Origin: Actinomycetota bacterium
Lineage (GTDB): Bacteria > Actinomycetota > UBA4738 > HRBIN12
Direction: 5' to 3'
NCBI GenBank assembly: GCA_035640355.1
Contig: DASQWI010000022.1
Span: forward strand, 1 to 64,000
Length of the DNA: 64,000 nt
Under the pieces are notes generated by a model. It searched no databases. It was not told the DNA's origin and was given only the letters and a program-made list of their open reading frames with translations. A program made the position numbers and the translations under genes. This document shows positions 1,758-31,071 of this stretch, piece by piece (position 1 is the first letter of the stretch; every line of letters starts with the position of its first letter).

Positions 1758-3208
1758 GTGTTCATTTGGGGAGACGACGTTCGCTCGCCCGCTCGCTCAC
1801 TTCTTGGGTCCTCCGCAGCCCCTGCCAGATCCTGCGGCGTAGCGAAGTGTCCGGCGACGGCCGTCGCCGCCGCGACGGCGGGCGACACGAGGTGAGTTCG
1901 GCCACCGCGCCCCTGGCGCCCCTCGAAGTTGCGGTTGCTCGTGCTCGCGCTGCGCTCGCCGGGATCGAGCCTGTCAGGGTTCATGCCGAGGCACATCGAG
2001 CAACCGGCGTCACGCCATTCGAATCCAGCCTCTTTGAACACGAGGTCGATTCCCTCTTCCTCGGCTTGCTGCTTCACCAACATCGAGCCGGGAACCACCA
2101 TCGCACGCAACCCCGCCGCCACCTTTCGGCCGCGCAGGATGCTCGCCGCCTCGCGAAGGTCCGTGATCCTGCTGTTCGTGCACGAGCCGATGAAGATCGT
2201 GTCGGGACGGATCTCCCGGATCGGCATCCCGGGCTTCAGCGCCATGTACGCGAGCGCGCGCTCGGCGGCGTCGTTCGCCGGTTCGGGAACGACGTCGTCG
2301 ATCGTGACCGTCTGTCCCGGGTTCGTTCCCCAGCTCACGTGGGGCCGAAGCTTCGTCGCGTCGAGCACGACGTCGTCGTCGAACGCCGCGCCGTCATCCG
2401 TGGGAAGCGTTCGCCAGTCGTCGAGAGCGTCCTCCCAGTTGGCGCCGTTCGGCGCGTGCGGCCTGCGCTCGAGCCACGCGAAAGTCGTGTCGTCCGGCGC
2501 GACCATGCCTGCCCTCGCACCCGCTTCGATCGACATGTTGCACACGGTCATGCGGCCTTCCATCGACAGTCCCCGGATGGCGCTTCCCCGGTATTCGATG
2601 ATCTTGCCTACGCCACCACCGGTTCCGATGCGCGCGATGATGGCGAGGATCACGTCCTTCGCCGAGACGCCCTCGGGCAGCTCGCCCTCCACGGTGACCG
2701 CCATCGTTCCGGGCTTGGACTGGGGAAGCGTCTGCGTCGCGAGGACGTGCTCGACCTCCGACGTCCCGATCCCGATCGCCAGTGCACCGAAGGCGCCGTG
2801 AGTGCTCGTGTGCGAATCGCCGCAGGCGATGAACAGCCCCGGCTGCGTGAGCCCCATCTGCGGCCCGATCACGTGGACGATCCCCTGGCCCAGATGGCCC
2901 GTCGGGAAGAGCTCGATGCCGAACTCGGCGCAGTTGCGGGCAAGGGCCTCCATCTGCTTCACGCTCACGGGATCCACGTCACCCGGCCCGGTCGGCACGT
3001 TGTGGTCCATCGTCGCCACCGTGAGATCAGGACGCCTGACGCCACGGCCGGCCATGCGCAGTCCGTCGAACGCCTGCGGGCTGGTCACCTCGTGAACGAG
3101 GTGGAGGTCGACGTAGAGCAGGTCGGGCTCGCCTTCCGCGCGATGAACGACGTGGCGTTCCCAGACCTTCTCGGCGAGCGTTCGGGCCGTCCCGGACATC
3201 GTCTTCAT
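1754..3208 (-). CDS. leuC: 3-isopropylmalate dehydratase large subunit
   Basis: The 484-residue large subunit belongs to the aconitase family and carries the 4Fe-4S cluster. The three cysteine ligands are visible: C343 in FIGSCTNSR, and C403 and C406 in [14 protein letters not shown] at 3208 has no clear Shine-Dalgarno; a second ATG at 3199 is also possible. The last 25-30 residues after [11 protein letters not shown] are atypical for LeuC. They are encoded by a sequence that recurs at 9112-9155, so the C-terminal tail appears to come from a short repeat inserted at the leuC-leuD junction. Confidence 0.95.
1768..1811 (-). repeat. Short interspersed repeat, copy A (inside leuC 3' end)
   Basis: On the minus strand this carries AAGAAGTGAGCGAGCG followed by CGAGCGAACGTCGTC, nearly identical to 9112-9155 (one length difference in the middle). 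It encodes the Ser-Glu-Arg-rich tail of LeuC. Two copies about 7 kb apart in unrelated contexts indicate a small dispersed element. Confidence 0.7.
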
Positions 3209-3240
3209 GGTGACAGGGCACGCCGAGTCCGTCTAGGCTA

Positions 3241-3257
3241 GTTCCACATAGTGGAAC
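3241..3257. promoter_or_regulatory. Perfect palindrome, probable IclR-family operator
   Basis: GTTCCACATAGTGGAAC is a perfect 7-3-7 inverted repeat between the leuC and IclR start codons. It lies just downstream of a TAGGCT hexamer at 3235-3240, the likely -10 of the regulator gene, and 33 bp upstream of leuC. The position suggests dual control of leuCD and of the regulator. Confidence 0.75.
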
Positions 3258-3260
3258 GGG

Positions 3261-3277
3261 GTTCCGATGGGCGGAAC
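3261..3277. promoter_or_regulatory. Second palindromic operator overlapping the IclR start codon
   Basis: GTTCCGATGGGCGGAAC is a perfect 6-5-6 inverted repeat with the same GTTCC/GGAAC ends as the site at 3241-3257. The two centres are 20 bp apart, about two helical turns. It covers the regulator ATG at 3267, consistent with autorepression. Confidence 0.7.
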
Positions 3278-4016
3278 AGGCCGAACGACCGTGACGATCG
3301 CCGATACCGGCGTGGGGACTCTGGACCGGGCCGTTGCGATCCTCGACGCCGTCGAGTCCGGCGTCCATCGGTTCACCGGGATCATGCACGCGACGGGCCT
3401 TCCGAGGGGCACGACTCACCGCTTGATCGCCTCGCTCGAGCGTCACGGCTTCCTCTCGAGGTATCCGGGGTTCGGGTACCGGCTCGGACCGCGACTGCTC
3501 CGTCTGGCCCACGAGGGAATGCGGGAGCTCCCGCTGCGCGACGTGGCGCATCCTTCCCTCGAGCGCCTCGCGCGTGTCACGGGCGAGAGCGCACAGCTGT
3601 ACGTGCGGTCGGGCGACGAGCGCGTTTGCATCGACGCCGTCGAATCGCAGAGCGAGCTCCGAACGATCGTCCGGGTCGGCGCGTCGCTCCCGCTCCACGC
3701 CGGATCCGCCGCGAAGGTGTTCCTGGCGTTCGCACCCGATCGGGGGCGACACGTCCGCAAGGCCGCCGATCCGGTTCGGTTCGGCCGCGACGTCGAGGTC
3801 GTTCTGACGCGCGGATGGGCGTCGAGCGTCGACGAACGTCAACAGGGCGTGGGCTCGGTCAGCGCTCCCATCCTCGGCGACCGCGACGCGCTGCTCGGCG
3901 TCGTCTCGATCTCCGGTCCGTCGTCGCGGATGAGCAAGGCCAACGCAAGGCGATACGTCCCTGCGCTGCAGGAGGCCGCGCGACGGATCGAGTCCGCCCT
4001 CGGCGTCCCCGGCTAG
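3267..4016 (+). CDS. IclR-family transcriptional regulator of leuCD
   Basis: A 249-residue IclR-family protein with an N-terminal winged helix (about 16-75) and a C-terminal effector domain. The gene is divergent from leuCD, the conserved actinobacterial arrangement of the LtbR/NdgR subfamily that controls leucine and other amino-acid genes. Residues such as TLDRAVAILDAV and the RGTTHRLIASLERHGF helix fit the DNA-binding domain. The start at 3267 follows GGAACGGGG. Two palindromes in the 58-bp divergent region are probable operators, one overlapping its own start codon. The leuCD assignment rests on gene order and operator position. Confidence 0.9.
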   Translation: MGGTGRTTVTIADTGVGTLDRAVAILDAVESGVHRFTGIMHATGLPRGTTHRLIASLERHGFLSRYPGFGYRLGPRLLRLAHEGMRELPLRDVAHPSLERLARVTGESAQLYVRSGDERVCIDAVESQSELRTIVRVGASLPLHAGSAAKVFLAFAPDRGRHVRKAADPVRFGRDVEVVLTRGWASSVDERQQGVGSVSAPILGDRDALLGVVSISGPSSRMSKANARRYVPALQEAARRIESALGVPG

Positions 4017-4019
4017 GGC

Positions 4020-5933
4020 CTACTGCGCGACGCTGACGGCATCGCGCGCGCCGTTGGTGACGTCCGCGTTGCCGTCGGCCAGATACACGTGGAACGACGC
4101 GCCGCCGCCCTCACGGTCCTCGACCCACGCATGTCCGCCGTGGAGTTCGGCGAAACGCGCGACGAGTGAGAGCCCGATACCGCTTCCGGGCTTGGAGCGC
4201 GAGCGAGGTCCGCGACGGAACGCCTCGAAGATCGAAAGCTTGTGTTCGTCCGGCACGCCGGGTCCCTCGTCCTCGACGACGATCGTTGCTCCACCTTCAT
4301 CGTGCCGCGTCACTCGTACCCAGATACGTGCCCACGGGGGCGTGTACCGCACGGCGTTCAGGATGAGGTTGTCGATGATGCGTTCCACCTTCGGCTCGTC
4401 GACGTTCACGGTCACGCGCGTGTCGCCGATGATCACCTTGCGGTGATGCAGCAGCTCGACCCGGTCCGCGAGGCGCTGCACGAGCTCGCCGAGATCACAC
4501 GGGAACCTCCGCGGCTCGACGAAGCCGCGGTCCAGCCGGTCGAGGTCGAGCAGATCGGACAGCAGCGCATTCATCGCTTTCGTTCGCTCGACCATCGTCT
4601 TCAGCAGGTGCGCGCGCTCGGCCGGATCGAGGTCTCGATCCAGTCGGTCGAGCGTGCTGGCGGCGCCCATGATGGCGGTGAGCGGTTCCTTGAGATCGTG
4701 CGACAGCGTGTGCAGGAGCGTGTTGTTCAAGCGGTTGAGCGCGAACAGCCGTTCCTCTGAGTGCCGGCGCTGTGTGATGTCGTACATCACGCCCTGCAGG
4801 AACAGCGCGTTGCCGTCGTCGTCCCGGACGACTGACGCTTCGTCCAAGATCCACCGCCATCGGCCGTCCCGGTGGCGCATCCGGTACTCGTAACGGAACG
4901 GAGCTGCGCTCGCGTGCGAGCGCTCCTCCGCCTCGAGAAGACCGGGAAGGTCGTCGGGGTGCGTGAACGTCCCTTGCGGGCTGGGGTGCGCGAGCCATTC
5001 TTCCGGCGTGAAGCCCATCAGCTGCTCGATCTGCGGGCTGATGTAGACCCAGTCTCCGTCCGAACCGTACCCGGCGAGGTAGACGACGGCGGGGATCCGC
5101 TCGACCAGGTTGCGGTACTTGGCATCGGTCTGCGCGTGCTGCTCTGCTGCGATGTGGGCGTCGGTGACGTCCATCATGACGCCCTGCCAGAACCGAGCGC
5201 CGGTCGTCGGTTCTTCGACGAAGAACGCCTCGTCGCGGAACCACCGCACGGTCCCGTCCTTGGCGAGCATCCGGTACTCCGACTCGAAGCGTTTCGCCAC
5301 GCCCACCGCGTTGCTGTCGCGGCTGACACGTTCGCGATCGTCCGGATGGATGGCGGCGAGCCACAGCGATGGGTCGGAGATCCACTCGTCCGCCGAGTAG
5401 CCGAGCAGCGTGGTCACCTGGGGGCTCACGTAGACGCCCCGGTACCCCTCCGCCGCGCTGGAGTCCGGAACGAGCGTGTACGTGATGGCGGGGATCTGTT
5501 CGACGAGCATTCGGTAGCGCACCTCCGCCTCGCGAAGCTCGAGGTAGCGCGCCTTGGCGGTCGTGCGTCCATCGATGTCGAAGGCACGAACGACCAGGAT
5601 CGGCTCGACGCCTTCGATCAACTCCGCCGAGACGCGCACGATGCGTGTCTCGCCCTCGGATGCCGTGAGGGTCGTGTCGTACCCGTCGATCAGTCCGGTC
5701 TGGCGGAGCCGCTCGCGCGAGCGCTCCGGGCCGAGGTCGCCCCACAGCCCGAGGTCGTCCACGCTCGAGCCGAGGACGTCGCCGATGCTCAGGCCTGCGA
5801 GCGAGCAGAAGGTGTCGTTGGCCTCGAGGACGACGCCGTCGTCGAACCGGGCGATGACCATCCCGACGAGGCTTCCGTGGAAGACACCGTCGAAGAGGCC
5901 CTCGCGGTGCGGGGCGGAGATGTCCGAGTCCAT
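4020..5933 (-). CDS. Triple-PAS sensor histidine kinase
   Basis: The 637-residue protein has three PAS/PAC units (about 15-125, 140-270 and 275-400; each of the last two ends with an F-x-QGVM-x-D-x-T signature), then a HisKA dimerisation domain with phosphoacceptor H412 in LSHDLKEPLTAI. The ATPase domain follows, with the N-box NLILNAVRYTP, G1 VEDEGPGVP and G2 GSGIGLSLV. There is no membrane span, so it is a cytoplasmic sensor. No cognate response regulator lies next to it. Its stop is a few bases from the convergent IclR gene. Confidence 0.92.
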   Translation of the reverse strand: MDSDISAPHREGLFDGVFHGSLVGMVIARFDDGVVLEANDTFCSLAGLSIGDVLGSSVDDLGLWGDLGPERSRERLRQTGLIDGYDTTLTASEGETRIVRVSAELIEGVEPILVVRAFDIDGRTTAKARYLELREAEVRYRMLVEQIPAITYTLVPDSSAAEGYRGVYVSPQVTTLLGYSADEWISDPSLWLAAIHPDDRERVSRDSNAVGVAKRFESEYRMLAKDGTVRWFRDEAFFVEEPTTGARFWQGVMMDVTDAHIAAEQHAQTDAKYRNLVERIPAVVYLAGYGSDGDWVYISPQIEQLMGFTPEEWLAHPSPQGTFTHPDDLPGLLEAEERSHASAAPFRYEYRMRHRDGRWRWILDEASVVRDDDGNALFLQGVMYDITQRRHSEERLFALNRLNNTLLHTLSHDLKEPLTAIMGAASTLDRLDRDLDPAERAHLLKTMVERTKAMNALLSDLLDLDRLDRGFVEPRRFPCDLGELVQRLADRVELLHHRKVIIGDTRVTVNVDEPKVERIIDNLILNAVRYTPPWARIWVRVTRHDEGGATIVVEDEGPGVPDEHKLSIFEAFRRGPRSRSKPGSGIGLSLVARFAELHGGHAWVEDREGGGASFHVYLADGNADVTNGARDAVSVAQ

Positions 5934-9167: not shown

Positions 9168-9977
9168 GTGGAGCTTCGGAGGTTCGGTCGCGCCGACCTC
9201 GAGGTTCCGGTCATCGGGCTCGGCACGTGGACGGTGTTCGACGTCGCGCCGTCCGATGAAGCCGGTCCAGGCGCGGTTGTCGAGGGCGCGTTCGGTGACG
9301 GGGTTCGACTCGTCGACTCGTCGCCGATGTACGGCCGCGCGGAAGCGGTGCTCGGTCGCGCGCTGACCCGGGCCGGCGTTCGCGCCTCCGCGACGGTGGC
9401 GACCAAGATCTGGACACCGTCGATCGTGGAAGGTCGCCACCAGTTCGAGTCGCAGCTCGACTTCTTCGGTGGGCGCGTCGACATCGAGCAGATCCACAAC
9501 CTCGTCGCGTGGCGAGAGCACCTCGGTTGGCTCGAGGACGAGGTGAAACTAGGGCGTATCGGTCTGCTCGGCGCGACGCACTGGAGCGAGGCGCGGTTCG
9601 GAGAGCTGATCGAGGTGATGGAGACGGGTCACCTCGATTCCATCCAGATCCCGTACAACCCGCTGGAGCGCAAGGCCGAGGGTGAGGTTCTGTCGCAAGC
9701 GGAGGAGCGGGGCATCGGTGTCATCGCCATGCGTCCCTTCGCGGAGGGCAGCTTGCTGGCGCACGCGCCGTCCGATCCGCGTGTCCTCCGCGAGCTCGGC
9801 GTCGAGACATGGGCGCAGGCGTTGCTCAAGTGGACGCTGAGCGATCGACGTGTTCACGTGGCGATCCCGGCGACCTCATCGGTCGAGCACGCGCGCTCGA
9901 ACGCCGCGGCCGGCGACCCGCCGTGGTTCGACGATGAGCAACGCGCCCTCGTCGAGCGGGTCGTCGCGCGGGGATGA
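9168..9977 (+). CDS. Aldo/keto reductase
   Basis: A 269-residue NADPH-dependent oxidoreductase of the AKR superfamily, starting with GTG at 9168. The tetrad is readable: D50 and Y55 in LVDSSPMYGRAE, K80 in VATKIW and H110 in IEQIHN. The C-terminal phosphate-binding segment VAIPATSSVEHARSN is also present. The substrate cannot be predicted. A zinc alcohol dehydrogenase follows 41 bp downstream from its own leaderless promoter. Confidence 0.9.
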   Translation: MELRRFGRADLEVPVIGLGTWTVFDVAPSDEAGPGAVVEGAFGDGVRLVDSSPMYGRAEAVLGRALTRAGVRASATVATKIWTPSIVEGRHQFESQLDFFGGRVDIEQIHNLVAWREHLGWLEDEVKLGRIGLLGATHWSEARFGELIEVMETGHLDSIQIPYNPLERKAEGEVLSQAEERGIGVIAMRPFAEGSLLAHAPSDPRVLRELGVETWAQALLKWTLSDRRVHVAIPATSSVEHARSNAAAGDPPWFDDEQRALVERVVARG

Positions 9978-10006
9978 GCGGCCGAACGAACGCGTCCGTG
10001 CCATCG

Positions 10007-10012
10007 TAGGGT
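10007..10012 (+). promoter_or_regulatory. Leaderless -10 (TAGGGT)
   Basis: TAGGGT, then 6 nt (CCGCCC), then the GTG start at 10019. There is no Shine-Dalgarno. Confidence 0.6.
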
Positions 10013-10018
10013 CCGCCC

Positions 10019-10999
10019 GTGCGCGCCGCGATCATGGACGCCCCGGTTCGCCCCCTGGAGATGCGCGACATGCACGACCCGTGGCCGGGGCCGGGCGAGG
10101 TGCGGATCCGCGTTGCAGCGTGCGCGATCTGCCGGACGGACCTGCACGTGCTGGACGGCGATCTGTCCGAACCGAAGCTCCCCCTCGTGCTGGGACATCA
10201 GATCGTCGGGGTCGTGGAGACCGTCGGGGACGCGGTCGCAGACCGGGCCATCGGCGACCGCGTGGGCGTACCGTGGCTCGGCTGGGCGTGCGGCGAATGC
10301 GACTATTGTCGATCGGAGCGCGAGAACCTGTGCGTCCGCGCCGTCTTCACCGGATATCAACGGGACGGCGGATACGCCGAGCTTGCGGTGGCCGACGGGC
10401 GATTCTGCCTGGAGCTCCCCGAGACGTATGACGACGTCCACGCGACGCCGTTGTTGTGCGCGGGACCGATCGGCTACCGCGCGTACCGGATGGCTGGCGA
10501 CGTGAGCTCGATCGGTCTGTACGGGTTCGGTAACGCGGCACGCCTCGTGGCGCAGATCGCACGAAACGAGGGTCGGTCGGTGTTCGCGTTCACTCGTCCG
10601 GGCGACGCCGAGACACAGCGCGAGGCGCTCGAGCTCGGATGCGCGTGGGCGGGCGACTCCACGGAGTCCGCCCCCGAGCCGCTCGGCGCAGCGGTCGTGT
10701 TCGCGCCCGCGGGCGAGCTCGTTCCGGCGGCGCTCCGTTCGCTCGCGCGCGGTGGCACCGTCGTATGCGCCGAGATCCACATGACCGATATCCCGTCGTT
10801 CCCGTACGAGTTGCTGTGGGGCGAGCGTGTGATCCGCTCGGTCGCGAACCTCACGCGTCGCGACGGACACGAGTTCTTGTCCCTTGCGGCCGCGGCCGGT
10901 GTGACGACGCAAGTGACGACGTATCCGCTCGACCGCTCGAACGACGCGCTCGATGCGGCGAGGGCCGGACTGGGCGGAACCTCCGTTCTCGTTCCCTAG
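10019..10999 (+). CDS. Zinc-dependent alcohol dehydrogenase
   Basis: A 326-residue medium-chain dehydrogenase of the AdhA-like type. Catalytic zinc ligands are C38 and H60 (LGHQIVG, with Gln where Glu is usual). Structural-zinc cysteines are C91, C94, C97 and C105. A Rossmann segment GLYGFGNAARLVAQIA follows. It should oxidise alcohols or reduce aldehydes with NAD(P); the physiological substrate is unknown. The start GTG lies 6 nt after TAGGGT and has no ribosome-binding site, so the transcript is probably leaderless. Confidence 0.9.
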   Translation: MRAAIMDAPVRPLEMRDMHDPWPGPGEVRIRVAACAICRTDLHVLDGDLSEPKLPLVLGHQIVGVVETVGDAVADRAIGDRVGVPWLGWACGECDYCRSERENLCVRAVFTGYQRDGGYAELAVADGRFCLELPETYDDVHATPLLCAGPIGYRAYRMAGDVSSIGLYGFGNAARLVAQIARNEGRSVFAFTRPGDAETQREALELGCAWAGDSTESAPEPLGAAVVFAPAGELVPAALRSLARGGTVVCAEIHMTDIPSFPYELLWGERVIRSVANLTRRDGHEFLSLAAAAGVTTQVTTYPLDRSNDALDAARAGLGGTSVLVP

Positions 11000-11005
11000 G
11001 TTCCG

Positions 11006-12340
11006 CTACAGGAGCGGTTCGACCGCCAGGATCCCGGTGCGGTAGGCCTCGATCGCGCCGGCGTCGTCTCCACCCTCTCGGAGCAGGTCGCCGAGCGTCC
11101 CATACGAGACGGCCAGACCGATCGTCTGCTCGGTGCGCACGTAGATCTCGATCGCCGCGCGGACGTGCTTCTCGCCCTGTGTCCGGTCGAGCTCGGCGAG
11201 CACCCGCCCCAGCGCGAGGTGCGCGTACGCGAGCTCCGGATCGTCGCTCGTCGCCAGCAGGGCGATAGCGTGTTCGAGCAACGCGCGCGCCTTGTGTCGA
11301 TCGCCCTGCAGCTGGGCGAGGCGGGCGAGCTCGTTCATCGTGCGGGCGAGGTCCTTGGTGTTCCCCGTTCGCTCGAACGTCGCACGCGCCGTCTCGAGCT
11401 CGCGCCGTGCGCCGTCGGCGTCTCCTTCACGGAGCATCACGTAGCCGCGCGCGAGGTGCGCTCCTCCGCGTTCCGTCTGGAGTCCTAGCGCGCGGTATGC
11501 ATCCTCCGCGCGCTGCAGCGACGCCGTCGCGTCGTCGATCCGTCCAGCCGCGAGGTACTGGCGCGCGACGTTCATGTGCATCTGAGCGATGCGCGCGGGA
11601 TCGGCGATCCGCGGCTCGAGGAGCTCGAGCTCTCGAGCCGACTCGGCGGCCTTCGCCATCAGCCCGGCATCGATGTACGAATAGACGAGGCTCGCGTGGA
11701 TGCGGGCGATGGCGTCCGGATCGCTGAGGCCCGATCGCTCGATCTCGTCGAGCAGGCTCTCGAGCAGGAAGATCGCGTACCGCACGTCGCCGAGCGCGCT
11801 GAAACAGATCGCCTTCCCGTCGACGGCGTCGACGCGGGCGGCCGCTGGCTCGTCGCGGAGGAGCTCCTCGGCACGCTGGTAACGCTCGAGCGCCAGGTCG
11901 GGGCGTCCGCTGCGCTGGAGCCACAGCCCGTGAAGCTCCTCGGTCCTTGCCTCGATGCCGGACAGGCTGTGGCGGCGGGCGTCACGGCGGATGTGCTCGA
12001 GCTCGCGTTCGGTCTCCTCGAAGCGGCCGTCGGAGATGGCGACGCGCGCGTCGTGCAAACGCATCCGAAGCGAGGTCTCGAGGCCGGGCGGCCGCCCCGT
12101 GATCAGCTCCTCCGCGTCGACTCCGAGCTTCGACGCGAAGTGCTCGAGCGCCTCACGCGACGGCCTTCGCCGCCCGGCCTCGACGGTGCTGACGTACGCG
12201 TGCGTGTAGCGGGGCTCCCCGACCTGGCGCTGCGTGAGGCCGCGCGCCTGGCGTAGTCGCCGCAGTCTTGTGCCGACCACCGCAACCCCTTCGTCGCTCG
12301 CGCTCTCAACTTCGGCAGCGGACGTGCCGAACTTAACCAT
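11006..12340 (-). CDS. XRE-family regulator with C-terminal TPR domain
   Basis: A 444-residue protein with a Cro/CI helix-turn-helix (RLRRLRQARGLTQRQVG ... YVSTVEAGRRRPSREALEHFA, about 22-80), then about ten tetratricopeptide-like helical pairs to the end. HTH-plus-TPR is the layout of peptide-responsive RRNPP regulators and also of many uncharacterised actinobacterial XRE proteins. ATG at 12340 lacks a Shine-Dalgarno; GTG at 12280 (VVGTRLRRLRQ) is preceded by AAGGGG and may be the true start. The gene diverges from a 33-residue peptide gene, with a palindrome in the spacer. Ligand and targets are unknown. Confidence 0.88.
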   Translation of the reverse strand: MVKFGTSAAEVESASDEGVAVVGTRLRRLRQARGLTQRQVGEPRYTHAYVSTVEAGRRRPSREALEHFASKLGVDAEELITGRPPGLETSLRMRLHDARVAISDGRFEETERELEHIRRDARRHSLSGIEARTEELHGLWLQRSGRPDLALERYQRAEELLRDEPAAARVDAVDGKAICFSALGDVRYAIFLLESLLDEIERSGLSDPDAIARIHASLVYSYIDAGLMAKAAESARELELLEPRIADPARIAQMHMNVARQYLAAGRIDDATASLQRAEDAYRALGLQTERGGAHLARGYVMLREGDADGARRELETARATFERTGNTKDLARTMNELARLAQLQGDRHKARALLEHAIALLATSDDPELAYAHLALGRVLAELDRTQGEKHVRAAIEIYVRTEQTIGLAVSYGTLGDLLREGGDDAGAIEAYRTGILAVEPLL

Positions 12341-17726: not shown

Positions 17727-18638
17727 TCAGCCCGCCGGCAGCTGCTGCCGGAGCGTCTGTACGTCGGCGAACGGGTCGCCGTCCCGATCGAGCCGTTCGA
17801 GGGCTCGCCTCGGCCCGAACCACAGGTCACGTTCGGAACGCTTCTCGACGGCTGCGTGGATCTCACCCCAGTCGAGCGGCATCGACACGGTCGGGAATGG
17901 ACCGGCTCGAAGCGAGTACGGCGCGACGGTCGAGCGCCGCCAATCGTTCTGGAGCCAGTCGACGAGCACCTTGCCCGCGCGCACGCCCTTCGCCTGGCGA
18001 TCGACGACGAGGGTCGGAGTGGACACGGCGAGCGCCTTCGCAACGACCCGCGCGAACGACTTGGTCTCCCCGAACGTCGCCCGCATATTCAGAGGGACGG
18101 CAACATGGAGCCCGAGCGAGCCGGACGTCTTCACGAACGAGCGCAGGCCGACGCCCGCGAGGGCTTCGTGGAGCAGGAGCGCGACGCGACTGCACTCGAT
18201 CAGGCCGGCACCTCCACCGGGGTCGAGGTCGAACATCATCATCGTCGGGGTGTCGACGTCGTTCGTGCGCATCAACAGTGGATGGAGCTCGATCGCCGAG
18301 AGGTTCGCGGCCCACAGCAGCCCCGCGAGATCGTTCACAACGCAGTAGTCCTGGGGCTCGCCTCCAGGAACGGTGAGGACGGACGTGTCCACGAACTCGG
18401 GGCGGTTCGAACCGCACCGCGTTTGGTACCAGGTGTTGCCCTCGACGCCCTCGGGGAATCGTCGAAGCGTCAGTGGACGCTCGGCGATGTGGCGGAGCAG
18501 CGCGGCCGAGACCTCGTAGTAGTACGTGAGCATCTGGCCCTTCGTGAACCGGCCGCGTGGGTACAGGATGCGTTCGGGCGTCGTGATCCGGACGGTCGTG
18601 CCGCCGACGTCTATGCGCGTCGCGTCGCGCGCCGTCAC
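17727..18638 (-). CDS. LigD-type DNA polymerase/primase domain protein
   Basis: A 303-residue stand-alone polymerase domain of the archaeo-eukaryotic primase superfamily, as in LigD. The GTG start at 18638 gives VTARDATRIDVGGTTVRITTP. Metal-binding Asp pair in MMMFDLDPGGG, substrate motif KTSGSLGLHVAVPL and third acidic site KVLVDWLQND are all present. It fills short gaps with ribo- or deoxyribonucleotides during non-homologous end joining. The ligase is a separate gene 44 bp upstream, and Ku is encoded at 50369-51325. Confidence 0.9.
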   Translation of the reverse strand: MTARDATRIDVGGTTVRITTPERILYPRGRFTKGQMLTYYYEVSAALLRHIAERPLTLRRFPEGVEGNTWYQTRCGSNRPEFVDTSVLTVPGGEPQDYCVVNDLAGLLWAANLSAIELHPLLMRTNDVDTPTMMMFDLDPGGGAGLIECSRVALLLHEALAGVGLRSFVKTSGSLGLHVAVPLNMRATFGETKSFARVVAKALAVSTPTLVVDRQAKGVRAGKVLVDWLQNDWRRSTVAPYSLRAGPFPTVSMPLDWGEIHAAVEKRSERDLWFGPRRALERLDRDGDPFADVQTLRQQLPAG

Positions 18639-18682
18639 GTCTTTCTCGGCGGGGGCCGCACCTTGATCGTCACGCCCATGTT

Positions 18683-19753
18683 CTACCCGTGCACTCCCCG
18701 GCCGGCGGCGACGAGGAGGGCCGGCGAGCGGTGGTCCACCTCGAGCTGGTCGAACGTGCAGGAACGCGGATCGCGATCGGGACGCCACCTGAGGAAGCGC
18801 GCCGGATGTCGGAAGCGGTCACGGTCGAACCTGTCGTACGCGACCTCTGCGACGCGATCGAGCCGGATGGGGACCCAGTCGTGCGCCATGTCGGGCGTCC
18901 ATCGCCCGGCTGTCCCTTTCAGCCGGCCGAGCGGACTCGGTTCGATCAGGAACCCCTCCGCCCAGGGGTGCTCCGGGAGCGGGACGGCGAGCGGCGACAG
19001 CTCGTCGAGGAACGCTCGTCGCGAGGCGTCGGTGAACGAGCTGACGACGCCGACGTGGCGGAGGTGGCCCTCCTCGTCGAACAGGCCCAGCAGGAGCGAC
19101 CCGATCGCGGGCCGGCTCTCGAGCCAACGGTAGCCCGCGACGACGCACTCCGCGGTGTGCTCGCGTTTGACCTTCAGCATGGCGCGTTCGCCCGGCACGT
19201 AGCGAAGATCTCGGTGCTTCGCGACCACGCCGTCGACGCCACCGCCGGCGTACCCGTCCAGCCAGCGCTCGGCGAGATCGGGGTCGTCCGTGATCGGCGT
19301 GAGCGCGACCGAGTCGGGCGGATCTTCGAGCAGCGACTCGAGACGTCGACGCCGCTCGTCGAACCGTTCGTCGCGGAGGTCGTCCTCGGCGATCTGAATC
19401 ACGTCGAACGCAACGAACGATGCGGGCGTCTCGCTCCGCAATCGTTGGACGCGGGACGCAGCGGGATGCAGTCGCGAGAGCAGCGCGGCGAAGTCGAACG
19501 CCCCGTCCTTGTCGCGGACGAGGATCTCCCCGTCGACGATCAGCCGGTCAGGCTCCATTGACCCGAACGCCTCGACGAGCTCGGGGAAGTAGCGGGCGAG
19601 CGGCCGCGCATGACGGCTCCACAGCTCGACGTCGTCGCCGTCGCGTACGACGAGCGCGCGGAACCCGTCCCACTTCGGCTCGTAACGATGTCCCTCCGCG
19701 TGGGGCAGCTCGCGGACGAGTCGAGCAAGCATCGGCTCGATCGGCGGCGACAT
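18683..19753 (-). CDS. ATP-dependent DNA ligase (LigD ligase-module type)
   Basis: A 356-residue ligase. The nucleotidyl-acceptor lysine is K27 in EPKWDGFRALV; further motifs are VDGEILV, FVAFDVIQ, GGGVDGVVAKH and the AMLKVKREHTAECVVAGYRW segment leading into the OB fold. It matches the ligase module of LigD, without fused polymerase or phosphoesterase domains. It begins 4 nt after the UdgX stop, so excision, ligation and polymerase functions are co-transcribed. Confidence 0.92.
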   Translation of the reverse strand: MSPPIEPMLARLVRELPHAEGHRYEPKWDGFRALVVRDGDDVELWSRHARPLARYFPELVEAFGSMEPDRLIVDGEILVRDKDGAFDFAALLSRLHPAASRVQRLRSETPASFVAFDVIQIAEDDLRDERFDERRRRLESLLEDPPDSVALTPITDDPDLAERWLDGYAGGGVDGVVAKHRDLRYVPGERAMLKVKREHTAECVVAGYRWLESRPAIGSLLLGLFDEEGHLRHVGVVSSFTDASRRAFLDELSPLAVPLPEHPWAEGFLIEPSPLGRLKGTAGRWTPDMAHDWVPIRLDRVAEVAYDRFDRDRFRHPARFLRWRPDRDPRSCTFDQLEVDHRSPALLVAAGRGVHG

Positions 19754-22399: not shown

Positions 22400-22678
22400 T
22401 CAGCTGGCCTTGCGGATCGCCTCGATCAGCTCCCACTTGCCCATCTTGGAGCGACCGGGGATGCCCTTGCGCTTCGCGACGTCGTAGAGCTGTGTCCGGT
22501 TGCGATCCTCGAGCGAGCGTCCGGCCTTTCCGCCGCGTCGTCGTGATGCCGCGGCCTGCCGGCCGAGGTCTCGCCGGGTCGCCTTGGGCAGCTTCGCGAT
22601 GGTCCGTTTCCGCTTCGCCGCCGAGCTCGCCTTGCGGATGTTGCGCCTCGCCGCCTGAGTCTGCTTCCTGGTCGCCAT
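22400..22678 (-). CDS. Small basic SAP/Rho_N-like protein
   Basis: A 92-residue Arg/Lys-rich protein. The N-terminal half is strongly basic (KQTQAARRNIRKASSAAKRK). The C-terminal helix pair, with RTQLYDVAKRKGIPGRSKMG and ending ELIEAIRKAS, resembles Rho_N/SAP-type helix-extended-helix nucleic-acid-binding motifs. The same C-terminal module recurs in the protein at 45550-45894. A strong GGAGGTGG Shine-Dalgarno precedes the ATG. A nucleoid or DNA-associated role is an inference. Confidence 0.8.
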   Translation of the reverse strand: MATRKQTQAARRNIRKASSAAKRKRTIAKLPKATRRDLGRQAAASRRRGGKAGRSLEDRNRTQLYDVAKRKGIPGRSKMGKWELIEAIRKAS

Positions 22679-22787
22679 GCCACCACCTCCATCGGAGGTC
22701 GTACCCGCCTCGCGCCTGTGGAACCGTCCGGCGCGTCGATGCCCGATTCGGCATAGCATCGATGGGTCCCTGAGTGAGGAGGCCGAC

Positions 22788-23078
22788 GTGGACGAACCGA
22801 CGACCGACCGAACCTTGTCCGACGACGACATCCAGACCATCTCGCCGCCCGTGGGGTCGGCCAGCACGGAGCGGCCGCAAGACGCCGACGGGACCGACAG
22901 CCGCGACGGAAAGGACGGCGACGCCACGGACATGCGCGACGGCGACGCGCGCGACCAGGACGGGCAGGACTCCCAGGACACCGACTCGAAGGACATGAAG
23001 GACGCCGACGGCACCGACACACGCGACACCGACGGCACCGACAGCCGGGACACGGACGGAACCGACCAGCGTTCGTGA
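22788..23078 (+). CDS. Asp-rich octapeptide-repeat protein, candidate substrate of the adjacent oxygenase
   Basis: A 96-residue acidic protein from GTG 22788, with GAGGAGG 6 nt upstream. Residues 1-31 form a non-repetitive, leader-like head. Residues 32-96 are repeats of consensus D-x-D-G-T-D-S-R: seven 8-residue units plus two shorter ones, 24 Asp in 65 residues, spaced 2-3-3 with no adjacent Asp pair. All Asp codons are GAC. The TGA stop overlaps the GTG of the downstream JmjC oxygenase (GTGA, 4 nt), so the two are translationally coupled. The pattern suggests a hydroxylation substrate or Ca2+-binding polyanion. No family was recognised. Confidence 0.8.
   Translation: MDEPTTDRTLSDDDIQTISPPVGSASTERPQDADGTDSRDGKDGDATDMRDGDARDQDGQDSQDTDSKDMKDADGTDTRDTDGTDSRDTDGTDQRS
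22881..23072 (+). repeat. Asp-rich 24-bp coding repeats
   Basis: Tandem units encoding DxDGTDSR-like octapeptides. The last three (DADGTDTR, DTDGTDSR, DTDGTDQR) are the most alike, with synonymous differences in Gly and Thr codons, suggesting protein-level conservation rather than a fresh duplication. Confidence 0.8.
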
Positions 23079-24259
23079 CGTCCGTCATCGAGCTCGAGCG
23101 CACGGGCGCCACGTCCGCGCTCGAGCTCTGCACCGGTGACGTCTCCGCGTTCAGGGAGCGAACGTGGGGGCGGAGCGTGCTCGTTCATCGGAGCGCCGGG
23201 CCGAACGCGTTCGCGGGACTGCTGAGCCTGGACGACGTCGATCGCATCCTTTCGACGACGTCGCTGCGGACGCCGTCGTTTCGGCTGGTGAAGGCCGGCG
23301 AGCAGATCCCGGAGTCGTCGTACACGCGCTCCGGCACGACTGGCTCGAAGCCGGTGAGCGGGATGGCCGATCCCATGCGCGTGTTCGAGCTCTTCCGGGC
23401 GGGCGCGACGATCGTCTTGCAGGGCCTGCATCGGTACTGGGAACCGGTCTCGCTGTTCACCCGCGATCTGGAGCTCGAGCTGGGGCATGCATGTCAGGTG
23501 AACGCCTATGTCACGCCGCCGGGAGCGCAGGGTCTCGAGCTGCACGAGGACCCGCACGACGTGTTCGTGCTGCAGGCGTTCGGGAAGAAGGCGTGGGAGC
23601 TACATGCCGCGCCTGGTGAGCCGACGCGCGACCCCGTGAGCGCGACGATCGAACCGGGCGACTCCATCTATATGCCGAAGGGAACGCCGCACGCGGCGTC
23701 CACGCAGGAGGCCGTGTCGGGCCACCTGACGGTCGGCGTTCACGTTGGGACGTGGCGCGACGTGGTGACGCGGGGGTGGCGCGTCGTCGAGCGCGATGCT
23801 GCATTCGACGAGCCGCTCCCGCTCGGATGGCATCGCGATCCCGAATCCGTGGAGCGCGCTTTGGAGGACAAGCTCGGAGTCGCACGCGGCGAGCTCGGAC
23901 GCCTGTCGGCGCGCGAGCTCGCCGATACCCACGCGTCGGACTTCCTCTCCACCCGCGCTTCGCTCCTCCGCGGCGCGCTCACCGATGTCCTCGAGCTCGA
24001 CGAGATCGGAGATGAGACGCTGGTCGAACGCAGGCGCGGTTCCGTGTGTGAGCTGCGTGCCCGCGGCGACCGCCTCGAGGTGCTCCTCGGCGATCGCCGC
24101 CTCGAGATGCCGTTTTGGGTGGAGCCGGCCATGCGCCGGATCGCGGCCGCCGACCAGTTTCGTGTTCACGACCTCGCCGACGCGGTGAACGATGCGGACA
24201 GCCGAGCCGTTCTGACCCGGCGGCTGGTCCGGGAGGGCTTGCTGACGATCGTTCGCTAG
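23075..24259 (+). CDS. JmjC/cupin-fold Fe(II)/2-oxoglutarate oxygenase (YcfD/RoxA-like)
   Basis: A 394-residue protein of the ribosomal-oxygenase-like JmjC family. The iron triad is H157-x-D159 in LELHEDPHDVFVLQAFGKKAW and H206 in YMPKGTPHAAS. The C-terminal half (about 250-394) resembles the dimerisation plus winged-helix part of YcfD/MINA53 proteins, ending in LTRRLVREGLLTI. Known members hydroxylate protein side chains; YcfD acts on an Arg of ribosomal protein L16. Its GTG start overlaps the stop of the Asp-repeat gene, so that protein is the most obvious candidate substrate here. Confidence 0.88.
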   Translation: MTSVIELERTGATSALELCTGDVSAFRERTWGRSVLVHRSAGPNAFAGLLSLDDVDRILSTTSLRTPSFRLVKAGEQIPESSYTRSGTTGSKPVSGMADPMRVFELFRAGATIVLQGLHRYWEPVSLFTRDLELELGHACQVNAYVTPPGAQGLELHEDPHDVFVLQAFGKKAWELHAAPGEPTRDPVSATIEPGDSIYMPKGTPHAASTQEAVSGHLTVGVHVGTWRDVVTRGWRVVERDAAFDEPLPLGWHRDPESVERALEDKLGVARGELGRLSARELADTHASDFLSTRASLLRGALTDVLELDEIGDETLVERRRGSVCELRARGDRLEVLLGDRRLEMPFWVEPAMRRIAAADQFRVHDLADAVNDADSRAVLTRRLVREGLLTIVR

Positions 24260-24386: not shown

Positions 24387-25247
24387 ATGCGTGGCGAACC
24401 CATGACCGGGACAGCGTCGGTCGTCCGTTCGTGGCTGCTCCTGGAGCATGCCGGGCCCTGGGGCGAAGACGCCTTCGTCGATGCCCGCCTCCCGGCAGGG
24501 TTCGCCGCCGAGGTCAGCGCCCGGTGTGAAGCAGCCCTCGTTCGCCCGCTCCTCATTCGGCGCGCTGCACCCGCTGGGGATCGAGGCGGTGTGAGGTGTT
24601 TCGCGATCCGCTCCGGGCCCGAACCACCGTGGATCGAGACGACATCGCTCGAGCGCCTGACCGACGCGCTGGAGCTCGACATCGAAGCGCTCGGCCGCGG
24701 TTCGTCCGTCGGACTCGACGCGCACGAAGACCCGGTGTTCCTCGTGTGCACCCACGGTCGGCACGACCGGTGCTGTGCCGAACGCGGCCGGCCACTCGCC
24801 TCCGCGCTCGCGGCGACGTACCCCCGGCAGACGTGGGAGAGCAGTCACTTCGGTGGCGACCGGTTTGCCGGCAACCTGATCGCGTTCCCCCACGGCCTCT
24901 ACTTCGGTCGGGTTGCACCGGCCGACGCCGACCACGTGGTGACGGAGTACACAGGCGGACGACTCGACCTAGATCGCCTTCGGGGGCGTTCGTGTTACCC
25001 GATGGCGGTGCAAGCGGCGGAGCTCCAACTCCGGACGAGGGAACGTCTCGTGGGTCTCGACGACGTGGTGTTCGAACGAGCGAGCCGTTTCACCTCGACG
25101 CTCGAGGCTTCGTTCCGAACACCACGCGGCCGGTTCGAGATCGTGCTCGATATCGACGAGGCAGACCGGCACTACCTCACCTGCAGGAGTGAAACCGAAC
25201 AGCCCCCGCCTCGTTACCGTGCTGCATCGATCAGCCGGATCGACTGA
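24387..25247 (+). CDS. Sucrase/ferredoxin-like (thioredoxin-fold Fe-S) protein
   Basis: A 286-residue protein of the Suc_Fer-like family. The signature CTHGRHDRCCAERGRPLASAL and the segment TWESSHFGGDRFAGNLIAFP are both present; family members have a thioredoxin-like ferredoxin fold that may bind a 2Fe-2S cluster. Starts at 24387 (AAGAGAG upstream), 24402 and GTG 24348 are all possible. It lies 127 bp after the JmjC gene on the same strand and could supply electrons to a redox enzyme, but no direct link is shown. Confidence 0.83.
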   Translation: MRGEPMTGTASVVRSWLLLEHAGPWGEDAFVDARLPAGFAAEVSARCEAALVRPLLIRRAAPAGDRGGVRCFAIRSGPEPPWIETTSLERLTDALELDIEALGRGSSVGLDAHEDPVFLVCTHGRHDRCCAERGRPLASALAATYPRQTWESSHFGGDRFAGNLIAFPHGLYFGRVAPADADHVVTEYTGGRLDLDRLRGRSCYPMAVQAAELQLRTRERLVGLDDVVFERASRFTSTLEASFRTPRGRFEIVLDIDEADRHYLTCRSETEQPPPRYRAASISRID

Positions 25248-29382: not shown

Positions 29383-31071
29383 CTGCCCAACGCCGACCAG
29401 AACGCCGCACCGAAGAGAAGGCTCGAACGGAGCAAGGAAGCCGCCCCCACGGCCGCCGACCGGAAGTGGGCCGCTCGCCCCGGCCTGAGCTGGCTCCTGC
29501 GTGTTGGCATCTTCCTGTTCCCGCTGGCGTGCGCGTTTGCGGCGACGCTCCTCGTCCGCGCGCTGTTGCCCGATGCGACCGAGAGAACCGTTGCCGCTTG
29601 GATCGGGCTGCTGGTGCTCGGCATCGTCGTGGCGATCGTCGCGGAGAATGCCGCTCGACGGCTCATCCCACTCGCCACGCTCCTGAAGCTGGCAATGCTG
29701 TTCCCGGGCAGGGCGCCGTCCCGGTTCAAGCTCGCGCGACGGGCCGGCAGCGTTCGGCAGCTCGAGGAACTGACGGAGAGCGAGGCAGGCGATGCCAGCG
29801 GTGTTGCGGAGGCCATCCTGACCCTCGTCACAGCGCTCGGGGCGCACGACAGTGCGACGCGAGGTCACGCAGAACGGGTTCGCGTGTACACGGACATGCT
29901 CGCGGAAGAGCTCGAGCTCCATGAGATCGATCGATACAAGCTGCGGTGGGCCGCGCTCTTGCACGACATCGGCAAGCTCTCGGTCGACGCCGCGATCCTC
30001 AACAAGAAGGAACCGCTTACCGACGGAGAGTGGGACCAGATCAAGAAGCACCCGGTCGAGGGCGTTCGGATGATCGAACCCCTCGCCGGCTGGCTCGGGA
30101 CGTGGGCCGACGCGATCGCGCACCACCACGAGCGTTACAACGGCACCGGGTACCCGGCCGGGCTCGCGGGAGAGCAGATCCATATCGGCGCGCGGATCGT
30201 CGCGGTTACCGACGTGTACGACACCATGACGTCGGCGCGGTCGTACAAGAAGCCGCTGTCGGCACGAGCCGCACGTGAGGAGCTGGTGTGGGCCGCAGGC
30301 AAGCAGTTCGACCCGGTGGTCGTTCGGGCCTTCCTGTCGATCTCGCTTCCGCGCTTGCTGTGGGCCACCGGTCCGGCCTCGCTCCTCGTGCACCTTCCGT
30401 TCCTCGCCCGGCTCCCCACGCTGGGCAGGGTCGTGACGTCCTCCGGTGCGCAGGCCGTCACCGCGTCCGTTGCCGCCGGCGTTGTCGCTGTTGGATTGAT
30501 CGCCCCTGCGGCCGCTCCCGCGGTGCGCCCGGTCACCGACGTCGTCCGCACGCAGGGGGAGGACACAAGGGATATCGGCGGGTCGGGTGAAGTCAGGAAC
30601 GAAAACGTCACCGATGAAGGCCACGACGGCGATCGTGACCGAGATGGAAAGGGCTCAGGTGACAAGGGCGAAGGTGGCGGCGGCGCCGGCGGAGGCGGCG
30701 CAGGCGGAGGCGGCGCAGGCGGAGGCGGTGGCGGACAGGTAAATGAACCGGTGGCACCGTCCCCGCAGCCCGAACCGCAACCGCAGCCGGACCCCGAGCC
30801 GGACCCGAAGCCGGATCCCAAGCCGGATCCCAAGCCAGAGCCGTCGCCGACCCCCGAAGGCGTGCGGGTTCCCGACGTCGTTGGGCTCCGCGAGACCGAC
30901 GCGACGGCCCGCCTCGAAGCGGCGGGGTTCGTCGTGCGCGTGGTCAAAGAATGGACTAACGACCCTGAGTTCAAGAATCTCGTCGGTGACCAGTCGGACC
31001 CAGCCGGATCTCGCGTGCCGGACGGGACGAGGATCACCGTCACCGTGATGAAGTGGCGGAACAAGAACTGA
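29383..31071 (+). CDS. Membrane HD-GYP phosphodiesterase fused to an extracytoplasmic PASTA domain
   Basis: The open frame runs from 29335 and contains conserved-looking sequence before any ATG/GTG/TTG. CTG 29383, with GAGGTGG upstream, is the best start (562 residues); TTG 29566 would cut the first membrane span. Order: basic head, two TM segments (about 48-100), HD-GYP domain (HDIGK at 194-198; HHHERYNGTGYP at 247-258), a hydrophobic span near 361-383, a Gly-rich then Pro/Asp/Lys-rich linker, and a PASTA domain (about 493-562, VRVPDVVGLRETDATARLEA). HD-GYP hydrolyses cyclic di-GMP; PASTA binds peptidoglycan fragments. I know of no characterised protein with this layout. Confidence 0.85.
   Translation: MPNADQNAAPKRRLERSKEAAPTAADRKWAARPGLSWLLRVGIFLFPLACAFAATLLVRALLPDATERTVAAWIGLLVLGIVVAIVAENAARRLIPLATLLKLAMLFPGRAPSRFKLARRAGSVRQLEELTESEAGDASGVAEAILTLVTALGAHDSATRGHAERVRVYTDMLAEELELHEIDRYKLRWAALLHDIGKLSVDAAILNKKEPLTDGEWDQIKKHPVEGVRMIEPLAGWLGTWADAIAHHHERYNGTGYPAGLAGEQIHIGARIVAVTDVYDTMTSARSYKKPLSARAAREELVWAAGKQFDPVVVRAFLSISLPRLLWATGPASLLVHLPFLARLPTLGRVVTSSGAQAVTASVAAGVVAVGLIAPAAAPAVRPVTDVVRTQGEDTRDIGGSGEVRNENVTDEGHDGDRDRDGKGSGDKGEGGGGAGGGGAGGGGAGGGGGGQVNEPVAPSPQPEPQPQPDPEPDPKPDPKPDPKPEPSPTPEGVRVPDVVGLRETDATARLEAAGFVVRVVKEWTNDPEFKNLVGDQSDPAGSRVPDGTRITVTVMKWRNKN

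Follow-up and report, generated by a model that had tools for sequence, protein, structure and literature searches.

An aspartate-repeat peptide gene paired with a NO66/MINA53/YcfD-type JmjC oxygenase gene in an apparently undescribed bacterial cassette

Introduction

Characterized protein side-chain hydroxylases of the NO66/YcfD fold target His or Arg residues of ribosomal proteins. These ribosomal oxygenases hydroxylate at C-beta, and a C-terminal winged helix is a general feature of the group. Hydroxylation of Asp is known from RiPP peptides, in which the 2-oxoglutarate (2OG) enzymes CinX (cinnamycin) and CanE (canucin) carry out beta-hydroxylation of a single Asp, and Xia et al. reportedly described macrocyclization in RiPPs by an alpha-KG dioxygenase (in J Am Chem Soc, in 2025). 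The principle of a JmjC-type enzyme in a RiPP pathway is already known from PbsQ, a JmjC-type, cupin-like hydroxylase encoded in a RiPP cluster (PMC12257519). A second report states that PF08007 proteins can have RRE-like folds and that bacterial homologues occur in RiPP-like contexts (PMC12710340). Finally, characterized thioredoxin-like ferredoxins bind a [2Fe-2S] cluster through the motif CX8C...HX3H (PMC8482512).

Here we analyze a peptide-JmjC-Suc_Fer cassette found in the window, a stretch of 64,000 nucleotides from an Actinomycetota bacterium. Its oxygenase resembles NO66, MINA53 and YcfD (JmjC_2, PF08007) in fold, in the HxD...H iron site, in the Lys of a GxKxW motif and in the C-terminal winged helix, but differs in its gene partners, a gene for a dedicated acidic repeat peptide and a Suc_Fer gene. 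Whereas NO66, MINA53 and YcfD act on ribosomal proteins, the gene context argues that the substrate of the cassette enzyme is apparently non-ribosomal. CinX and CanE are a parallel, in that a 2OG enzyme beta-hydroxylates Asp of a ribosomal peptide, as proposed here, but they belong to other enzyme families and modify a single Asp, whereas the cassette peptide contains many repeats. The PbsQ/BpmG enzymes of biphenomycin-type clusters, and the PF08007 proteins with RRE-like folds noted in PMC12710340, share with the cassette a RiPP-like context and a JmjC-type oxygenase for which a ribosomal peptide is the known or proposed substrate; the cassette differs from such clusters in comprising only a precursor, the JmjC enzyme and Suc_Fer, with Asp-repeat cores. 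Like the preliminary description of this DNA, which knew of no such system, we found no description of the cassette in the open-access literature, Pfam or NCBIfam (a subscription paper could exist), and the cassette is real, conserved and apparently undescribed. Its features, all on the forward strand, are as follows.

22776-22782, + strand: Shine-Dalgarno-like GAGGAGG preceding the GTG of the peptide gene at 22788, read directly from the sequence
22788-23078, + strand: Asp-repeat precursor-like protein, 96 aa, GTG start; the homologous position is filled in 118 of 121 relatives
22815-22838, + strand: leader motif LSDDDIQT, residues 10-17, matching the family consensus L-[ST]-D-[DE]-[DE]-[IM]-x-T
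22881-23075, + strand: Asp-repeat core, 65 aa, 24 Asp, DxDxxD units
23075-24259, + strand: JmjC 2OG/Fe(II) oxygenase of the NO66/MINA53/YcfD type, 394 aa, assigned from PF08007, NO66 in the PDB, and AF2 with Foldseek
23543-23692, + strand: iron site H157, D159 and H206 with candidate 2OG-binding K172, invariant in a 54-row alignment
24020-24256, + strand: winged-helix-like C-terminal domain (strands, then three helices, from AF2 secondary structure), candidate leader-binding site
24402-25247, + strand: redox protein of the Suc_Fer type (PF06999), with C117-x8-C126 and H150-x3-D154 in numbering from 24399; its start codon was chosen by judgement

Results

An acidic repeat peptide overlaps the oxygenase gene

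The window peptide contains 29 Asp among its 96 residues, 24 of them in the 65-residue core that starts at residue 32, and every Asp-Asp distance within this core is 2 or 3. The pattern DxDxxD occurs eight times, compared with 0.78 expected from composition shuffles (p ≤ 5e-5), and a 24-base DNA tandem repeat lies inside the core at 23001-23066. Searches with the peptide against Pfam and NCBIfam found nothing, even with the threshold at E ≤ 1. Its TGA stop codon (23076-23078) overlaps the GTG start codon of the JmjC gene (23075-23077), the shared four bases being GTGA. Direct reading of the sequence bears out the preliminary description of a 96-residue protein with a leader and an Asp-repeat region (24 Asp in 65 residues) whose stop codon overlaps the oxygenase start. 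The DxDGTDSR-type repeats that it named are also real, but the octapeptide is one variant of a DxDxxD unit that runs through the whole family.

The oxygenase is closest to NO66

The window JmjC matched the PF08007 profile with E 7.7e-18. Searching the PDB by sequence gave NO66 as the best match (E 5.7e-17), followed by MINA53 and YcfD (YcfD E 2e-5), and NO66 was also the top Foldseek match of the AF2 model (pLDDT 93; E 9.4e-25, TM 0.69). The enzyme had been introduced as a YcfD-like JmjC oxygenase with an intact H157-x-D159...H206 iron site. It is a JmjC oxygenase and its iron site is intact: all three ligands, and K172, are unchanged across 54 aligned relatives. The label YcfD-like needs correcting, as NO66 is nearer by sequence and fold, and we use NO66/MINA/YcfD-type instead. 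No other PF08007 protein occurs in the source genome, and a search there for a separate YcfD gene found none. In the AF2 model, the C-terminus, which we inspected for an RRE-type domain, forms strands and then three helices. Since this winged-helix layout is general to ribosomal oxygenases, it is no proof of leader binding; binding of the leader by this domain would be in line with the RRE-like folds of PF08007 proteins noted in PMC12710340.

The peptide and the oxygenase are paired across genomes

In a first survey of 101 relatives, 14 encoded the JmjC enzyme, and in these 14 genomes acidic repeat ORFs that share a leader precede the JmjC genes wherever the contig covers the upstream DNA. A wider scan of about 85,000 species genomes returned at least 557 JmjC relatives, and the best 80 of these at least 557 show the same peptide-JmjC pairing; they come from Nocardioides, Aeromicrobium, Micropruina, Propioniciclava, Acidimicrobiia, Nitriliruptorales, Cellulomonas, Micromonospora, two Chloroflexi (Chloroflexota) and others. 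Most often joined by the Suc_Fer gene, the pair is spread over Actinomycetota and also occurs in two Chloroflexota genomes. Even sampling of the phylum found a match in 47 of 302 good genomes.

The peptide lies directly upstream of JmjC in 118 of the 121 distinct loci whose upstream sequence reaches 250 bases or more; an initial composition filter gave 119, and the ORF at one locus (L139) was judged on inspection to be no real precursor. Of 6958 control ORFs in the same loci, 11 (0.16%) were D/G-rich in this sense. As a negative set we used about ten JmjC proteins from Streptomyces-like genomes that are more distant (98-152 bits); an Asp-repeat peptide accompanies none of them. The overlap of the two genes had earlier been taken to mean a dedicated substrate-enzyme pair, to be checked by looking for a conserved small Asp-repeat gene upstream of JmjC in relatives, and on both points the frequency of the pairing, 118/121 against 11/6958 in controls, speaks strongly in favor. 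The dedicated pairing of peptide and JmjC is near-certain, a dedicated substrate-enzyme relation is close to certain, and the peptide is very probably modified by the adjoining oxygenase.

A conserved leader precedes variable, Asp-rich cores

Under a strict rule, the leader consensus L-[ST]-D-[DE]-[DE]-[IM]-x-T is present in 107 of 119 peptides. The cores have a median length of 62 aa (34-138 aa) and consist of 31% Asp and 23% Gly. A core Asp is followed almost exclusively by G, A, S or T, with the next Asp 3 or 2 residues away; adjacent DD pairs are avoided (27 observed vs. 678 expected). In 91 of 106 cores, DxDxxD is more frequent than in shuffles (p<0.01). A second core type, EGPADGG...HDGGADG, is built from repeats of 21-22 residues and was seen in Micromonospora, Cellulomonas and several other genomes. 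This type was also found in about 12 of the loci examined from the genus Streptomyces, where the acidic leader motif is missing. GPRDA, GGGLLGGGGDASGDT and DENLDAPGEHSQDTGDE represent rarer core types. Core type follows JmjC clade, with 5 changes on the JmjC tree compared with 15.5 for shuffled labels.

The only residues found in every core are D and G, with A and T nearly so; Arg is present in 25 of 107 cores, and Thr is absent from some EGPADGG cores. In pairwise comparisons, where pairs are not independent, Asp codons changed in 11% of aligned positions vs. 33.5% for other codons. Synonymous changes outnumber non-synonymous ones between the closest pairs, also not independent (e.g. 30 to 4 for a pair of Micromonospora). 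The control ORF frequency and this codon conservation led us to reject chance, or low complexity driven by GC content, as the origin of the peptide.

The Streptomyces clavuligerus relative of JmjC (34% identity) has an upstream 48-aa peptide with the leader SLEPDEIEVI and the units DNDPSD and DPDPFD, and a 76%-identical enzyme from another Streptomyces genome comes with the same peptide design. On the S. clavuligerus megaplasmid (L216:5769-9116 and 9890-12184), a 48-aa DxDxxD peptide, JmjC, an S9 peptidase and an ABC transporter lie together, making this cluster a candidate source of a secreted product of the same chemistry.

A Suc_Fer protein with an altered ligand motif is the third gene

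The window Suc_Fer protein matches PF06999 with E 5e-21 (76.1 bits; cut-off 34.9). A Suc_Fer gene lies directly downstream of JmjC on the same strand in 103 of 119 loci (82 of 96 in the set examined first), and at least five of the 16 loci without one stop at a contig edge. About a tenth of the loci have no Suc_Fer although there is room for it, so Suc_Fer is not essential. In the survey of 101 relatives, Suc_Fer occurs in 13 of the 14 JmjC genomes vs. 5 of the 87 without JmjC (Fisher p 1e-11, uncorrected for kinship).

Cassette members share the CX8C and the first His of HX3H with the thioredoxin-like ferredoxins Apd1 and Aim32, which have a second His where the cassette members have Asp at that predicted ligand position. 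The window protein, with H150-x3-D154, accordingly departs from the bis-His motif CX8C...HX3H. Asp replaces the second His in 104 of 109 cassette Suc_Fer proteins, whereas His is kept in 20 of 21 non-cassette ones, and this split holds even where one genome has both kinds. This is a clean cassette-specific change at a predicted [2Fe-2S] ligand position. A Foldseek search with the Suc_Fer model found no solved relative. Taken together, the linkage, the co-occurrence and the cassette-specific ligand change support the earlier suggestion that the downstream sucrase/ferredoxin-like gene is a partner of the oxygenase.

Beyond the peptide, the only broadly conserved members of the neighborhood are JmjC and Suc_Fer; an S9 peptidase and an ABC transporter occur nearby only in S. 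clavuligerus. Clustering of neighbor ORFs, for which ORF calling is noisy in GC-rich DNA, yielded no conserved exporter or protease. In the window, a Rieske oxygenase gene and a CHRD gene upstream of the cassette were considered as parts of the system and rejected, being absent from every other locus (upstream flanks are short in some).

Discussion

The cassette has two hallmarks of RiPP systems, a small gene with a conserved leader and a variable core, and an adjacent modifying enzyme; the dedicated protease or exporter that is common in such systems, and not strictly required, was not found. That neither is conserved argues for an intracellular role of the modified protein. We favor, as likely on balance, a RiPP-like leader/core cassette in which the leader is bound by the JmjC enzyme, which hydroxylates numerous Asp of the core, with Suc_Fer as its redox or iron partner and a cytosolic product. 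The acidic leader LxDDDIxT would be recognized by JmjC, most likely through its C-terminal winged-helix domain. With Fe(II), 2-oxoglutarate and O2, the enzyme would then place hydroxyl groups on C-beta of numerous Asp in the core, and Suc_Fer, with its altered [2Fe-2S] ligand set, may keep the enzyme iron reduced or supply iron or electrons. The result would be a poly-(beta-hydroxy)Asp protein in the cytosol that plausibly serves as a metal-binding polymer; binding of hard metal ions, Fe(III) or Ca(II) for example, by a string of beta-hydroxyaspartates is speculation.

Hydroxylation of Asp by JmjC is, in our estimate, likely. The target had been proposed as Asp, or else Arg or Thr. Asp is well supported by inference from core composition, as the sole hydroxylatable side chain in every core; Arg, present in 25/107 cores, is rejected and seems unlikely as a general target, and Thr is missing from some EGPADGG cores. 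By analogy with the ribosomal oxygenases, C-beta would most likely be the site. On the other hand, the HDGGADG clade, which has far fewer Asp, could be modified elsewhere, and the side chain or the substrate on which JmjC acts could be a different one.

The same cassette might instead perform other JmjC chemistry, namely hydroxylation of Thr, Ser, Ala or His, desaturation, an oxidative crosslink or an aspartimide-type change in which Suc_Fer participates. 2OG enzymes perform varied oxidations, the conserved Suc_Fer with its altered ligand could itself be catalytic, and the related cupin-like hydroxylase PbsQ targets Orn in a RiPP (PMC12257519). We nonetheless consider such chemistry rather unlikely, because only D and G occur in every core, T being absent from some EGPADGG cores, and the most conserved positions are Asp. 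It is more improbable still that JmjC is an ordinary ribosomal-protein hydroxylase of the YcfD/NO66 kind, bound by the acidic peptide as an inhibitor, chaperone or regulator: its nearest solved structures are ribosomal oxygenases and no other PF08007 protein exists in the genome, but an enzyme present in only 14 of 101 relatives would be odd for a housekeeping function, and variable repeats that track the enzyme clade suit a substrate better. There is very little probability that the peptide ORF encodes no functional protein and is either an attenuator built on Asp codons or low-complexity sequence arising from GC-rich DNA, since the tandem DNA is indeed rich in GAC and GGC but the leader is conserved across phyla, close relatives show a synonymous excess, control ORFs reach 0.16%, and cores of 34-138 aa far exceed attenuator leaders.

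If hydroxylation of core Asp by the JmjC enzyme is correct, the cassette would represent a large bacterial family of peptide-modifying JmjC enzymes with a clear, repetitive, encoded substrate, and a link between ribosomal oxygenases and RiPP biosynthesis. It would also lend itself to a simple assay, with one peptide, one enzyme and steps of +16 Da. The cassette Suc_Fer would offer an iron-sulfur ligand set that is new and open to testing, and the cassette would give a handle on many proteins annotated as 'cupin domain-containing' or 'sucrase ferredoxin'. A bolder and rather less probable reading is a widespread, hitherto undescribed class of encoded, multiply beta-hydroxylated Asp polymers that would bind Fe or Ca in the cytosol and would not be secreted natural products, made by dedicated NO66-type JmjC enzymes with a new Cys2-His-Asp subclass of [2Fe-2S] ferredoxins.

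Distant relatives of JmjC occur near other RiPP genes. In Streptomyces-type genomes, distant PF08007 JmjC genes lie near TfuA proteins (PF07812; E 3.5e-32 and 1.8e-22) at L092:7087-7866 and L146, and this points to a second group of JmjC enzymes belonging to RiPP clusters of the thioamide type. Plasmid pPg_03 of Pseudanabaena galeata (L247) encodes, at 2935-4155, a JmjC/cupin protein with about 30% identity to that of S. clavuligerus, and a gene for a LanM lanthipeptide synthetase lies some 3 kb away. We count the distant relatives beside TfuA or LanM genes in favor of the RiPP-like reading, together with the S. clavuligerus peptide and the lack of a second PF08007 protein in the source genome. 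At two further loci (L232 and L233), a short peptide upstream of JmjC, MENVDFDDIEFIETAEELLATSYYKNIQ, has a DDI leader-like motif without an Asp core and is possibly another JmjC-linked RiPP precursor.

Elsewhere in the window, a small basic protein with a Rho N-terminal motif (PF07498) at its end is encoded divergently from the cassette (22400-22681, − strand). At 17727-19753 (− strand), genes for a LigD-type primase-polymerase (PF21686) and an ATP-dependent DNA ligase lie side by side, an ordinary split end-joining set. Downstream, an unusual fusion at 29566-31071 (+ strand) joins an HD domain through a long proline/glycine linker to a C-terminal PASTA domain (PF13487, PF03793).
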